Shown here: piece by piece, positions 39,693 to 53,922 of the stretch
How positions within the stretch are numbered: the first letter of the stretch is position 1
Layout: each line of letters opens with the position of its first letter
Assembly (NCBI GenBank): GCA_014058405.1
Contig: CP047423.1
Coordinates: 3,952,501 to 4,016,500, forward strand
Reading direction: 5' to 3'
Source of the DNA: Candidatus Nitrospira kreftii
Lineage (GTDB): Bacteria; Nitrospirota; Nitrospiria; Nitrospirales; Nitrospiraceae
DNA: 64,000 nucleotides
The notes under the pieces: generated by a model
What the model was told of the DNA's origin: nothing
Seen by the model: the letters and a program-made list of their open reading frames with translations, nothing else
The model's database searches: none
Made by a program: the position numbers and the translations under genes

Positions 39693-40502
39693 CTAGTAGA
39701 CGCTCTTGGACCCTGGGCCCACCTGGCTGGGAAACGGATCCAGGATACTCTTGGGCGCATTGTTCCAGATCACGTCCGCGAGGTTCGACATGCGGCTCAC
39801 GATCTGGGCCGCCACCCCGCCGGCCGCCCCGAACAACCCGCACCAGCCCAACGTCACAAAGCCCCAGTGCAACGGCGCCGAGAACAGCTCATCGACAAAC
39901 CAGAACGCATGGCCCCACTCATTCAACCCCACGTTCGGCAGAATGAACATCGGCCCCACCACCGCCGCCACCAACGCAAACGACGTCGCTTGGCTATACA
40001 GCGGCAACCGCGTCTGCGCATACAGATAGCTCGCCACGCCGCACGTGATGTACAACGGGAAGGTCCCGTAGAACGCCACGATGTGGCTCGCCGTGAAGCT
40101 CGTATCCCGGATGATCACCTGGTGCCACGCCGCATCCTGCTCCAGGGTGTAGCTGCCCGCGTAGTACACGCCCCAGATGTAGCACACCAGCCAGCCCATC
40201 CAGTAGAAGTACCGCTTCAGCTCCAGTTTCGGGTCCAGGTTCGTCAGGTTCCGATCCCGCGTCACCCAGATCCAGCCGATGGTCACGGCAAAGAACGCCG
40301 CATTGGCCAGAATGTTAAACCGCCACAGTCCCATCCAGACGGAGTCAAACTCAGGGGTCATGGAGTCCAACCCGTGGGAATACCCAAACGCCCGCTGATA
40401 CAGCACCCAAAAAACGCCGATCGCCAGCATTGCAAACCAGCCGATCTTCACCGGCTTCGAGTCATACCACTGCGAAATGTCATACCCGCGATCACTTGCC
40501 AT
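39693..40502 (-). CDS. amoC: Ammonia monooxygenase subunit C (stand-alone copy)
   Basis: Membrane subunit of the copper enzyme that oxidises ammonia to hydroxylamine. The 269-residue protein reads [117 protein letters not shown], which follows Nitrosomonas AmoC almost motif for motif, including the Asp/His/His metal-site region. About six membrane helices are expected. No amoA or amoB is adjacent, as with extra amoC copies of comammox Nitrospira. GGAAGGAGGATAAACC precedes the ATG. Its very GC-rich third positions leave a long opposing open frame. Confidence 0.95.
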
Positions 40503-41657: not shown

Positions 41658-42575
41658 TCACTGATACACGCGCTGGCGCATCGACAGAAGAATCATGAGG
41701 CGGCTGTGAAGAGCGGTGAGATCATCGAGCAGTTCGATCTTCATATTCCGAAGACGATCTCCGAAAGCGTGGGCACTCTGGCCCCCCACGGCAACAGGCC
41801 ATCGGGTGACCAGGTGTTCAAATTCCTTGAGTTGTTGTCGAATAGCGGCCTCGGACTTTGCTTCAGTGAGAGAGAGAAGCACGAGATCTGGACTGATCTT
41901 CTCGCAGAAGGCAACGAGGTCAGACATCGGAAGGTTAGGGCCAAGGTAATACACCTGGCAACCTCGGGTCGCTGCGATATATGCAACGGCTTGGGCCCCG
42001 ATTTCATGCGTTTCCCCTTCCGGGCAAGCGATCAACACACGCGGACCGAATTCATTCACGGGAAGCTGATTCATGACAGAGAACAACTTCTGCTGGATGA
42101 GCTTCGTGACGTAATGTTCGATGGCGGTTCCAAGAAGACCTTGGTGCCACAATTCCCCGATTCGTCGTTGCAGTGGGAGTAAAATACGCTGGACAGCTTC
42201 TTCGAAGGGAATGACGGCCACTGCGCCGTTGAGTTTCCGCTCGAACCCCGCCTTGTCGATCGGGTCAAGCATTCCAAGCAAATCATCTAATAGATGCTCA
42301 TGCGGCTTCTGTTCCTCTGAGACAAATGGGGTTGCGAGACGCATACGTGCGAGTAGCGAATCGCGTCCCTCTGTTGCAAGACCACCGATTGTTGCGCCTT
42401 GCTCCATCTGCGCTTTCACAAAGCGCAGGAGTGCCACATCCTCATCACTGTATTCGCGATAGCGATTTGAACTTCGCGAAGGTGTGACAAGACCATACCG
42501 CCTCTCCCACACACGAATCACGTCTTTCGAGAGTCCTGTTAATTTCGCAACTCTATGAATTCTATGTTTATTCAT
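41658..42575 (-). CDS. CarH/LitR-type B12-dependent photoreceptor repressor (copy 1)
   Basis: A 305-residue MerR-family regulator. Residues 1-70 form the winged helix (RVAKLTGLSKDVIRVWERRY; NRYREYSDEDVALLRFVKAQ). A four-helix cap and a Rossmann cobalamin domain follow. The light-sensing residues of Thermus CarH are kept with identical spacing: W143-H144-x8-E153-H154 (WHQGLLGTAIEH), and the axial His is H190 in EGETHEIG. In this family dark AdoCbl-bound tetramers repress and light releases DNA. The start M4 of the frame aligns with copy 2. It is divergent from a tetraheme cytochrome gene across a shared operator. Confidence 0.9.
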   Translation of the reverse strand: MNKHRIHRVAKLTGLSKDVIRVWERRYGLVTPSRSSNRYREYSDEDVALLRFVKAQMEQGATIGGLATEGRDSLLARMRLATPFVSEEQKPHEHLLDDLLGMLDPIDKAGFERKLNGAVAVIPFEEAVQRILLPLQRRIGELWHQGLLGTAIEHYVTKLIQQKLFSVMNQLPVNEFGPRVLIACPEGETHEIGAQAVAYIAATRGCQVYYLGPNLPMSDLVAFCEKISPDLVLLSLTEAKSEAAIRQQLKEFEHLVTRWPVAVGGQSAHAFGDRLRNMKIELLDDLTALHSRLMILLSMRQRVYQ

Positions 42576-42593
42576 AAACAACAATACATTAAA

Positions 42594-42704
42594 ATTATAT
42601 TATAATGTCCAATGTTTGTCAAATACTATTATAAACATCTATTGACACCTTAGACATATTCAGTTATACATTAGACGTATAAGATACAAACATTGAACAT
42701 AAGC
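42594..42704. promoter_or_regulatory. Divergent CarH promoter/operator 1
   Basis: Two strong overlapping-region promoters. Leftward (to carH copy 1): TTGACA (complement of 42617-42622), 17 bp, TATAAT (complement of 42594-42599). Rightward (to the cytochrome): TTGACA 42642-42647, 17 bp, TATACA 42665-42670. Copies of a GACAT-type element recur at 42653, 42674 and 42696, about two helical turns apart, and one lies inverted inside the leftward spacer (42605). Nearly the same arrangement occurs at 52941-53050. Confidence 0.75.
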
Positions 42705-42717
42705 CAGGAGGGTCATC

Positions 42718-43344
42718 ATGCTAGGGAGGTTCAGGCAATACTTGGGCGCGTCGGGCGGCGCCCTGCTTCTTGGCGCCGTTCTCATGGTCGGAGCAATCGC
42801 CGTGGTCTTCGGCGGGGAGCACGCCCTCTCCAGAACCGAGTTCTGCGTGAGCTGTCATTCCCAAACCTACCCGTGGGAGGAGCTGAAAAAATCCTCGCAC
42901 TATGGCGCACTCGGGGCCGATCCAGGCTGCAAGGACTGCCACGTACCTCAGGGCTTGGGGAACTTCCATCTGGCCCTATGGACACACATCTATGACGGGT
43001 CGCGCGCCGTACTTGCGGAGATGAAGTATGACTACTCGACAATCGAGAAATTTAACGAGCGCCGGCCTATCATGGCCCATTACGCGCGCATGTCCCTCAA
43101 AAACTGGGACAGCGTCACTTGCCGGGATTGCCATAAGAACACCAAGCCACCCGGCGCATCGGCGAAGGCCGCGCACAAGAAAATGGAAACCGAGGGTGCC
43201 ACCTGCATCGATTGCCATCAGAATCTGGTCCATAAGAAAGTCCCGGAGAGCGATCTCAATGCAAGTTTAGCGAAGGGGATCATGGTATTGAAGGAAGTAA
43301 AAAAGGGAACGGAAGACACTGAGGATTCGGATGATAAGGACTGA
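42718..43344 (+). CDS. NapC/NirT/NrfH-type tetraheme cytochrome c
   Basis: A 208-residue membrane-anchored quinol dehydrogenase. An N-terminal helix (GGALLLGAVLMVGAIAVVFG) is followed by four CxxCH heme motifs at C43-H47 (CVSCH), C71-H75 (CKDCH), C135-H139 (CRDCH) and C163-H167 (CIDCH). Members pass electrons from quinol to periplasmic reductases or, as cM552 (CycB), between HAO cytochromes and quinone. It is the first gene right of CarH operator 1; CCAGGAGGG precedes the ATG. A charged C-terminal tail (KGTEDTEDSDDKD) is unusual. Confidence 0.9.
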   Translation: MLGRFRQYLGASGGALLLGAVLMVGAIAVVFGGEHALSRTEFCVSCHSQTYPWEELKKSSHYGALGADPGCKDCHVPQGLGNFHLALWTHIYDGSRAVLAEMKYDYSTIEKFNERRPIMAHYARMSLKNWDSVTCRDCHKNTKPPGASAKAAHKKMETEGATCIDCHQNLVHKKVPESDLNASLAKGIMVLKEVKKGTEDTEDSDDKD

Positions 43345-46009: not shown

Positions 46010-48262
<2,253 letters not shown>

Positions 48263-52010: not shown

Positions 52011-52928
52011 TTACCCGCGAGAGACGGCTTGCCTCATCAATCGATCCAGCCGGTGATCCAAGTCAGTGAAACTCTCCAGAACCGTAATATTGTGTGTCCT
52101 GAAAAGGTCACGCATGGCGAGCGCGCCATGCCCGCCGACGGCAAGATCGGAGGCAGGACGCACTGCATCGGCAAGGGTTTGAACCAACTCAGCCGCATGG
52201 GCCTCTGGAAGTGCGACAGGAAATGACATGATGGTCAGATCTGGTTCAACCTCATTGCAGAGCTTGGCCAATGAGCCAAGCGGCACATTGGCTCCCAAAT
52301 AGTGAACTCGGCAGCCGCGAATACGACATCGATAGGCCACTGCAAACGCGGCGATGTCGTGTTCCTCGCCAGGCGGACAGCCCACCACCACTTTGGCGCC
52401 GAACTCAGCGACTGGAAGCTGATTCATGGCGGAGAAAATCTTTTGTTGGATTTGCCTTGTGACGTAATGTTCGATCGCCACGTCCAGATGACCATCGTGC
52501 CAGAGCTGCCCCACCTGTTCCTGAAGCGGGAGTAAGATCCCATGCAGCGCTTCCTCAAAGGGAATCACCGCCACGGCGCCGTTCAAACGCTTCTCAAAGA
52601 TCACCCGATTGAAGGGATTCAAACTAGACAGCAGTTCCTGCAGGAGCCTACTGAATGCATTCTCGACGAACGACACTTGCGGTGCAGTGGCTCGTGCTCG
52701 ATTCAACAACTCCTCTCGCCCTAATTTCGACAGCTCTCCGATCGAGCCTCCAGCATCCAACTGCTCCTTCAGGAACCTGAGTAACGCGACATCTTCATCG
52801 GAATAACTCCGATAACGATTGGCTCCTCTAGTCGGTTTTAGGATTTCAAATCGACGTTCCCATACTCGGATAACATCCCGCGAGAGCCCTGTGAGTTTTG
52901 CAACTCTATGAATTCTATGAGTATTCAT
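52011..52928 (-). CDS. CarH/LitR-type B12-dependent photoreceptor repressor (copy 2)
   Basis: A 305-residue paralogue of the regulator at 41658, colinear along its length. The MerR helix is RVAKLTGLSRDVIRVWERRF. W143-H144-x8-E153-H154 (WHDGHLDVAIEH) is intact and the axial His is H190 in PPGEEHDIAA, where the usual Gly of HxxG is Ala. The linker AVAVIPFEEA is almost identical in both copies. It is followed by the DCC gene and divergent from the promoter region at 52941-53050. Predicted to be a dark-state repressor opened by light. Confidence 0.9.
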   Translation of the reverse strand: MNTHRIHRVAKLTGLSRDVIRVWERRFEILKPTRGANRYRSYSDEDVALLRFLKEQLDAGGSIGELSKLGREELLNRARATAPQVSFVENAFSRLLQELLSSLNPFNRVIFEKRLNGAVAVIPFEEALHGILLPLQEQVGQLWHDGHLDVAIEHYVTRQIQQKIFSAMNQLPVAEFGAKVVVGCPPGEEHDIAAFAVAYRCRIRGCRVHYLGANVPLGSLAKLCNEVEPDLTIMSFPVALPEAHAAELVQTLADAVRPASDLAVGGHGALAMRDLFRTHNITVLESFTDLDHRLDRLMRQAVSRG

Positions 52929-52940
52929 AATTGGAGTCCA

Positions 52941-53050
52941 ATTCTATTCCAATGTTCAATGTTGGTCAAATTTTTAACAAATAACACTTGACACAGTGGA
53001 CATATTTGTCTTATACATTGGACATACTTATGACAAACATTGACCATAAG
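52941..53050. promoter_or_regulatory. Divergent CarH promoter/operator 2
   Basis: Leftward (to carH copy 2): TTGACC (complement of 52964-52969), 17 bp, TAGAAT (complement of 52941-52946). Rightward: TTGACA 52988-52993, 18 bp, TATACA 53012-53017. GACAT-type elements recur at 52999, 53021 and 53043, 22 bp apart. The rightward half aligns almost base for base with operator 1 (for example AAACATTGA-CATAAG in both). No strong gene starts within 250 bp on the right. Confidence 0.75.
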
Positions 53051-53628
53051 CATCATCTACACAGAAAAGCATACCGTCTCAGCCACTTCAAATGGCATGG
53101 CCTTTTGCTACATCAGTACGCTTCATCTTGTTGCAGATTTCCTCAGAGATCTTCATCCCTCACCCAACCATCTCGCTTAACTAGAGAGGTTTTCAACCAG
53201 TTGCAGCGTTCCTGGTGGTCACATTGCGTGGCCCCCGTTTTGCCTAGGCCTCTAGTACGGTTGGTGAGTTCCTGCCCGGAATCATCGGTGCCGGGAGGGA
53301 AGGGTGATTTCTATGAGAAGGACAACCTACATAGTCTCTGTTGCTCCGGCATGTGGACCGGCGAGCATAATCATTTCCGTCACCAGTCGATCGATAGAAA
53401 CGAGACAACGAACGATCCGAGGCACTGTGGTCGCTACAGACGATTCCGTCGATCTTTAGACTATCTGGGTGCAAGTATTGCTCCCTACATAACGAAGCGC
53501 ACCTGGGCGAAGGTTGTGTGCCGACAGATACGAGGATTATGAGAGAGAAACAGCTGCCCGTAAGACGCATATCACGTACCTCAAGATAGCTAATGGTTTG
53601 ATGATCGATCAAGCAGATGGAGGTCATC
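53051..53628. other. Leader or low-coding region right of operator 2
   Basis: About 580 bp between the rightward CarH promoter and the next convincing gene. One short frame, 53313-53459 (48 aa, MRRTTYIVSVAPACGPASII), has a purine-rich GGGAGGGAAGGG before its ATG and could be a small peptide. A longer frame starting in the promoter is not protein-like. The stretch may also be a long 5' leader or decayed coding DNA. Confidence 0.4.
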
Positions 53629-53922
53629 ATGGCGAGCTCAGAGCACAATACGAGAATCCGTGAGATTCAGGGTCAATCAGATATCTCTTCAGCACTGCTT
53701 CAGTCAAGCTGCCTGAGATGCGGCGGTCTCATGGTGAACGAAGTCTCCATGGACCTGATGAACAGCAGTAGCGAACTGGAATGTGCCACAAAACGATGCG
53801 TGCAGTGCGGTGACATCCTTGATCCTGTCATCTTGCGAAATCGTCGCATTCGTCAAGAACCCATGCCAGTCCAACGTGACGGACACTCGTTGCCAAGCAA
53901 CTCGGCAATAGGACGTGGATAG
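53629..53922 (+). CDS. Small zinc-ribbon protein
   Basis: A 97-residue protein starting MASSEHNTRIREIQGQSDIS. Two C-x2-C pairs, SCLRCGGLMVNE and KRCVQCGDILDP, are 30-40 residues apart and look like a zinc ribbon; proteins with CxRCGGLM-x-E recur in Nitrospira. GGAGGTCATC precedes the ATG, closely resembling the leader of the tetraheme gene at operator 1. It is the first clear gene right of operator 2. Confidence 0.7.
   Translation: MASSEHNTRIREIQGQSDISSALLQSSCLRCGGLMVNEVSMDLMNSSSELECATKRCVQCGDILDPVILRNRRIRQEPMPVQRDGHSLPSNSAIGRG

Follow-up and report, generated by a model that had tools for sequence, protein, structure and literature searches.

Closest described systems

Among the described systems closest to the locus analyzed here are the operators of CarH in Thermus thermophilus and Bacillus megaterium, in which a unit nnnnTnnACAn is repeated in tandem 11-bp steps over the −35 or −10 box, imperfect units being allowed, and in which the cognate regulator joins a MerR HTH to an AdoCbl domain (PMC9304148). 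Characterized CarH operators consist of three to five units. At the Pcrt operator of the CarH-CarA system of Myxococcus xanthus and Cystobacter, perfect and imperfect repeats (DR and dr) are combined, the −35 box lies inside a unit, and two paralogous regulators have common operators. The Pseudomonas class II LitR regulon (PplR/PmlR) offers a further likeness: several paralogues of LitR are encoded close to photolyase and stress genes, the promoters are sigma-70-like, and repair functions are induced by light (PMC9758184).

The window (the whole 64,000-nucleotide stretch of DNA that was analyzed, from Candidatus Nitrospira kreftii, hereafter the home genome) contains two copies of what is, judging from the sequence, a genuine conserved CarH-type operator, a kind already known. 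In contrast to the T. thermophilus and B. megaterium operators, it sits between divergent genes and has two oppositely oriented arms, one with two clear units and the other with a DR-dr-DR-dr-DR series; no adjacent carotenoid gene was seen, and there are two paralogous regulators with one operator copy each. The Pcrt operator differs in controlling a carotenoid operon; at the present locus, no gene for an antirepressor was identified. Class II LitR proteins are without the Rossmann B12 domain and depend on a LOV protein, whereas both B12 subdomains are retained in the Nitrospira proteins. In the literature searched, Nitrospira and CarH/LitR were linked only in passing, in a paper on Leptospirillum and in a review on vitamin B12.

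Anatomy of the two divergent regions

Positions 42594-42704 form a divergent intergenic region between carH1 on the minus strand and a NapC/NirT-family cytochrome gene on the plus strand, and a second such region lies beside carH2. Their features are as follows.

41658-42584, minus strand: carH copy 1, with MerR HTH, B12-binding helical bundle, and Rossmann B12 domain (Pfam)
42594-42622, minus strand: carH1 promoter, TTGACA (42622-42617), 17-bp spacer, TATAAT (42599-42594); 12/12 consensus match
42606-42622, minus strand: left operator, tandem 11-bp units TTGACA (42622-42617) and TGGACA (42611-42606), covering the −35 box and spacer
42642-42670, plus strand: rightward promoter of the NapC/NirT-type cytochrome gene, TTGACA (42642-42647), 17-bp spacer, TATACA (42665-42670); 10/12 by sequence
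42651-42699, plus strand: right operator, TAGACA (42651), TAGACG (42672), GATACA (42683), and TGAACA (42694), in steps of 21, 11, and 11 bp
42718-43344, plus strand: NapC/NirT-family multiheme cytochrome, the right arm's first gene (Pfam Cytochrom_NNT, E 5e-43)
52011-52928, minus strand: carH copy 2, with the same domain set as copy 1 (Pfam)
52941-52969, minus strand: carH2 promoter, TTGACC, 17-bp spacer, TAGAAT, with tandem units TTGACC (52969) and TGAACA (52958)
52988-53046, plus strand: right arm of copy 2, promoter TTGACA (52988-52993), 18-bp spacer, TATACA (53012-53017)
From 52997, plus strand: right-arm units of copy 2, TGGACA (52997), TGGACA (53019), ATGACA (53030), and TGACCA (53041), in steps of 22, 11, and 11 bp
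53617-53922, plus strand: small zinc-ribbon-like protein

An earlier sequence-only reading had proposed two near-perfect sigma-70 promoters in copy 1, a description that fits the leftward promoter; the rightward one is good but not near-perfect. It also placed an inverted element in the leftward spacer, and GGACAT is indeed present there on the minus strand at about 42610-42605. GACAT elements had been listed at 42653, 42674, and 42696; the first is exact, but the second reads GACGT and the third is GAACAT at 42695-42700. The proposed recurrence of the layout at 52941-53050 was borne out, with both promoters present, elements at 52999 and 53021, and a degenerate one at ~53042. The left core consists of tandem 11-bp units in each copy, with TTGACAAACAT followed by TGGACAT in copy 1 (two units) and TTGACCAACAT followed by TGAACAT in copy 2.

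The ATG at 42575 is the likely start codon of carH1. Both predicted carH start codons lie only ~12-20 bases from the −10 box (42575-42594; 52926-52941), and therefore the carH mRNAs may be nearly leaderless. A catalase/peroxidase (KatG) with an N-terminus that looks, by eye, like a signal peptide is encoded at 46022-48262, downstream of the cytochrome genes. Rightward after carH2, the segment 53617-63631 encodes several SUMF1-like and NAD-dependent epimerase-like proteins, a thiol peroxidase-like protein, and a photolyase. About 570 bp (53050-53616) separate the second right arm from the zinc-ribbon gene. In relatives, the zinc-ribbon orthologue begins immediately after the right arm, and in two of them (L080 and L083) the ribosome site of the gene directly follows the operator. 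The stretch 53050-53616 has a single 68% match elsewhere in the home genome (222045-222401); terminal repeats were looked for in it, as were Rfam families, and none were found.

The regulators and a proposed mechanism

Both flanking regulators are of the CarH or class I LitR type, as read from their sequences, with the AdoCbl/light signature residues intact. CarH1 and CarH2 each match the Pfam families MerR_1, B12-binding_2, and B12-binding above the cut-offs, as well as T. thermophilus CarH (5c8d), with E-values of 3e-34 and 5e-24, respectively. When CarH1 was aligned to 5c8d, the W, H, E, and H residues and the lower-ligand H were all matched; the signature GxxW, Wx9EH, GxxH, GxxxP is present in both proteins, and W, H, E, and the ligand H are retained in 29/29 homologues. 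NCBIfam NF052513, the CarH equivalog model, is the best NCBIfam match of both proteins, although their scores (148 and 112 bits) are well below its cut-off of 400 bits, which, by that model, makes them members of the family but not equivalogs. CarH1 and CarH2 are 69% identical in the HTH region and 36% identical in the Rossmann part; thus, both could plausibly read the same repeats.

Very probably, the region is a divergent, autoregulatory operator of the CarH type, repressed in the dark by AdoCbl-CarH, released by light, and serving a small regulon. By analogy with characterized CarH proteins, AdoCbl-loaded oligomers of CarH1, CarH2, or both would bind the tandem 11-bp TnnACA repeats in the dark, on the left over the carH −35 box and spacer, and on the right from just past the −35 box to beyond the −10 box. 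Bound oligomers would block RNA polymerase at both divergent promoters. Light would cleave the Co-C bond of AdoCbl, the oligomer would disassemble, and both sides would be transcribed. The two divergent arms would thereby couple autoregulation with output, and the shared operator would tie together a small regulon of two carH loci and a glutathione peroxidase/sigma-70 pair.

It is unlikely, but deserves consideration, that one or both paralogues form a B12-independent switch like CarA, binding the same repeats and being relieved by an antirepressor, redox, or reactive oxygen species (ROS). In CarH2, two residues or segments deviate from the full B12 motif (ExHx2A instead of G, and SFP instead of SxT/V), and the protein may therefore be B12-independent like M. 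xanthus CarA, which needs no B12 yet has operators in common with CarH. Also in favor of such a switch, class II LitRs act via a LOV protein, and the genes associated with the operator here are peroxidase and redox genes. The intact W, H, E, H, and lower-ligand H residues in both proteins argue against it and favor the AdoCbl-dependent, light-released operator.

The repeat frame

Read in frame, the operator unit is the 11-bp direct repeat TnnACA, and the earlier framing around GACAT was mis-set. Tandem 11-bp TnnACA units were found in the left arms of both copies and at site 3 of the home genome, the right arms being partly degenerate. Counting imperfect units, the right arms hold four to five, whereas the left arms have two clear units only. 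Both arms overlap promoter elements, as the left arm contains the −35 box and the right arm spans the spacer and −10 box. Within the right arm, the second unit is weak, and most sequences show a phase slip of 1 bp; like the low unit number of the left arm, this speaks against a CarH-type operator. In the two copies, right-arm units fall at +30/31, +41/42, and +52/53 from the −35 box. Taken alone, the number of bare TnnACA units is unusual in copy 1 (P=0.012) but not significant in copy 2 (P=0.19). The commonest spacing between pairs of TnnACA is 11 bp, observed 23 times against 0.8 in shuffles, a contrast that is not a probability because the sequences are related.

The two-turn spacing of the sequence-only reading has a real basis, since the best right-arm units are 21-22 bp apart; however, the true step is 11 bp and the two-turn distance picks out every second unit. 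It is very improbable, then, that a conventional MerR dimer or tetramer reads a GACAT-centered element at 21-22 bp: that spacing does hold for the best-matching right-arm units, but the step is 11 bp in the left arm and among right-arm units 3-5, and CarH reads single 11-bp direct repeats.

Classical MerR activators have a −35/−10 spacing of 19-20 bp. The arrangement found here is not the classical activator site, a palindrome within a 19-20-bp spacer, but direct repeats with spacers of 17, 17, 17, and 18 bp, a spacing that suits a blocking repressor. A CarH/MerR-type oligomer predicted to block polymerase over the −35 and −10 boxes, much as previously suggested, is still the best-supported reading, with the repeat itself reframed.

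Conservation and genomic distribution

Homologues of carH were found in 26/59 related genomes (E<=1e-30), the carH-bearing contigs including, by name, those of N. moscoviensis and many Nitrospira MAGs. The carH upstream regions used for comparison number 26, a set from which L073, which is masked, was left out, as were the distant homologues L077-L079, whose upstream stretches, as far as read, show no comparable array. Both left-arm units match at 3/4 or better in all 26, from Nitrospira and other genera of the order, with unit 1 exact in 23 and unit 2 exact in 17. Right-arm units at offsets 9, 30, 41, and 52 from the −35 box are present in 54-85% of sequences (at least a 3/4 match).

A genome scan had been named beforehand as the refuting test, and the motif proved not to be common at random. 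At up to 2 mismatches, the 18-mer TKGACAWACATTGRACAT has four sites in 4.13 Mb, all within three divergent intergenic regions, and at up to 3 mismatches, it has 12 matches against 1 in the control. The three regions are those of the two carH genes and one between a divergently transcribed glutathione peroxidase and sigma-70 factor; this third region, which was first found by a pattern derived from the window alone, has tandem units on both strands. A 36-position sequence model gave the three regions E-values of 2e-8, 2.6e-6, and 1.2e-5 (next best, 0.59), which are descriptive, the model having been trained on the sites of those same regions. Close orthologues of the sigma factor carry the operator upstream in four relatives (G013, G019, G007, and G034). 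In G007, which is 94% complete, carH was not detected; this exception counts against the CarH reading, though it may reflect incompleteness.

Two further sets of matches were set aside. Three tandem TnnACA units with two mismatches gave 161 matches in a genome scan against 160 in the control, which is background, so the bare unit is too short for defining a regulon. Outside Nitrospira, isolated pattern matches lacking a coherent target gene were taken as noise.

The claim that conservation between the copies supports function needs qualification: the copies do share the operator, but this is weak evidence alone, and the strong evidence comes from the 26 carH regions and the glutathione peroxidase/sigma factor site. 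The least probable reading is that of a strong sigma-70 promoter pair without a specific operator, the copies being alike through −35/−10 consensus and common descent, for although the repeats overlap TTGACA and TATAAT-like boxes and the carH copies are paralogous, the spacer (AAACATTGGACAT) is as strongly conserved as the boxes, the T, A, and C of the second unit are invariant in 27/27 aligned sequences, and the motif, nearly unique in the genome, recurs at unrelated genes.

A possible link to ammonia monooxygenase

With five copies of amoC and an apparent amoCAB operon (amoA and amoB assigned by position and by eye), the home genome is taken to be comammox. Its amoC copies are without the operator within the stretches read. 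A lone amoC at 39693-40502, near carH1, has a copy of equal length and equal score at 3548927, the latter preceded by an AmoD-like gene.

Relatives have a divergent operator flanked by glutathione peroxidase and an AmoD/AmoE-like gene, and in several contigs amoC comes after the latter. Among the best 30 loci of this protein in the genus, 12 have the operator nearby (G006, G074, G011, G097, G072, G032, G061, G100, G034, G062, G070, and G013), and the same operator criterion gave zero matches in 106 kb of other home-genome loci. On six of these 12 pieces amoC was seen (G011, G097, G032, G061, G100, and G013), and most of the other pieces stop at a contig end or close to one. In G034, the AmoD/AmoE-like gene sits behind the glutathione peroxidase gene. 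The promoter is ~300 bp upstream of the AmoD/AmoE-like gene in several loci, so there may be a second promoter. A CxxxxxxxLxH...C motif in the protein resembles the Cx7MxHxnC of the PmoD/AmoE type, with L in place of M, but neither Pfam nor NCBIfam gave a match for the protein.

An operator upstream of the AmoD/AmoE-like gene hints at light-derepressed expression of an AMO subunit. We consider it possible, though somewhat short of probable, that a CarH-type light switch in comammox Nitrospira jointly governs glutathione peroxidase, a dedicated sigma-70 factor, and a lone AmoD/AmoE-like-amoC operon, such that light, an inhibitor of ammonia oxidation, would derepress a replacement AMO subunit and peroxide defense.

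Implications

Nitrifiers are light-inhibited. In the literature searched, a CarH-type operator in nitrifiers and its possible amoC link are unreported. The outcome of this analysis is a named sensor, a defined DNA site, and a short, directly testable list of targets. If the proposed switch is correct, light-sensitive nitrifiers may turn on repair and replacement genes in the light.
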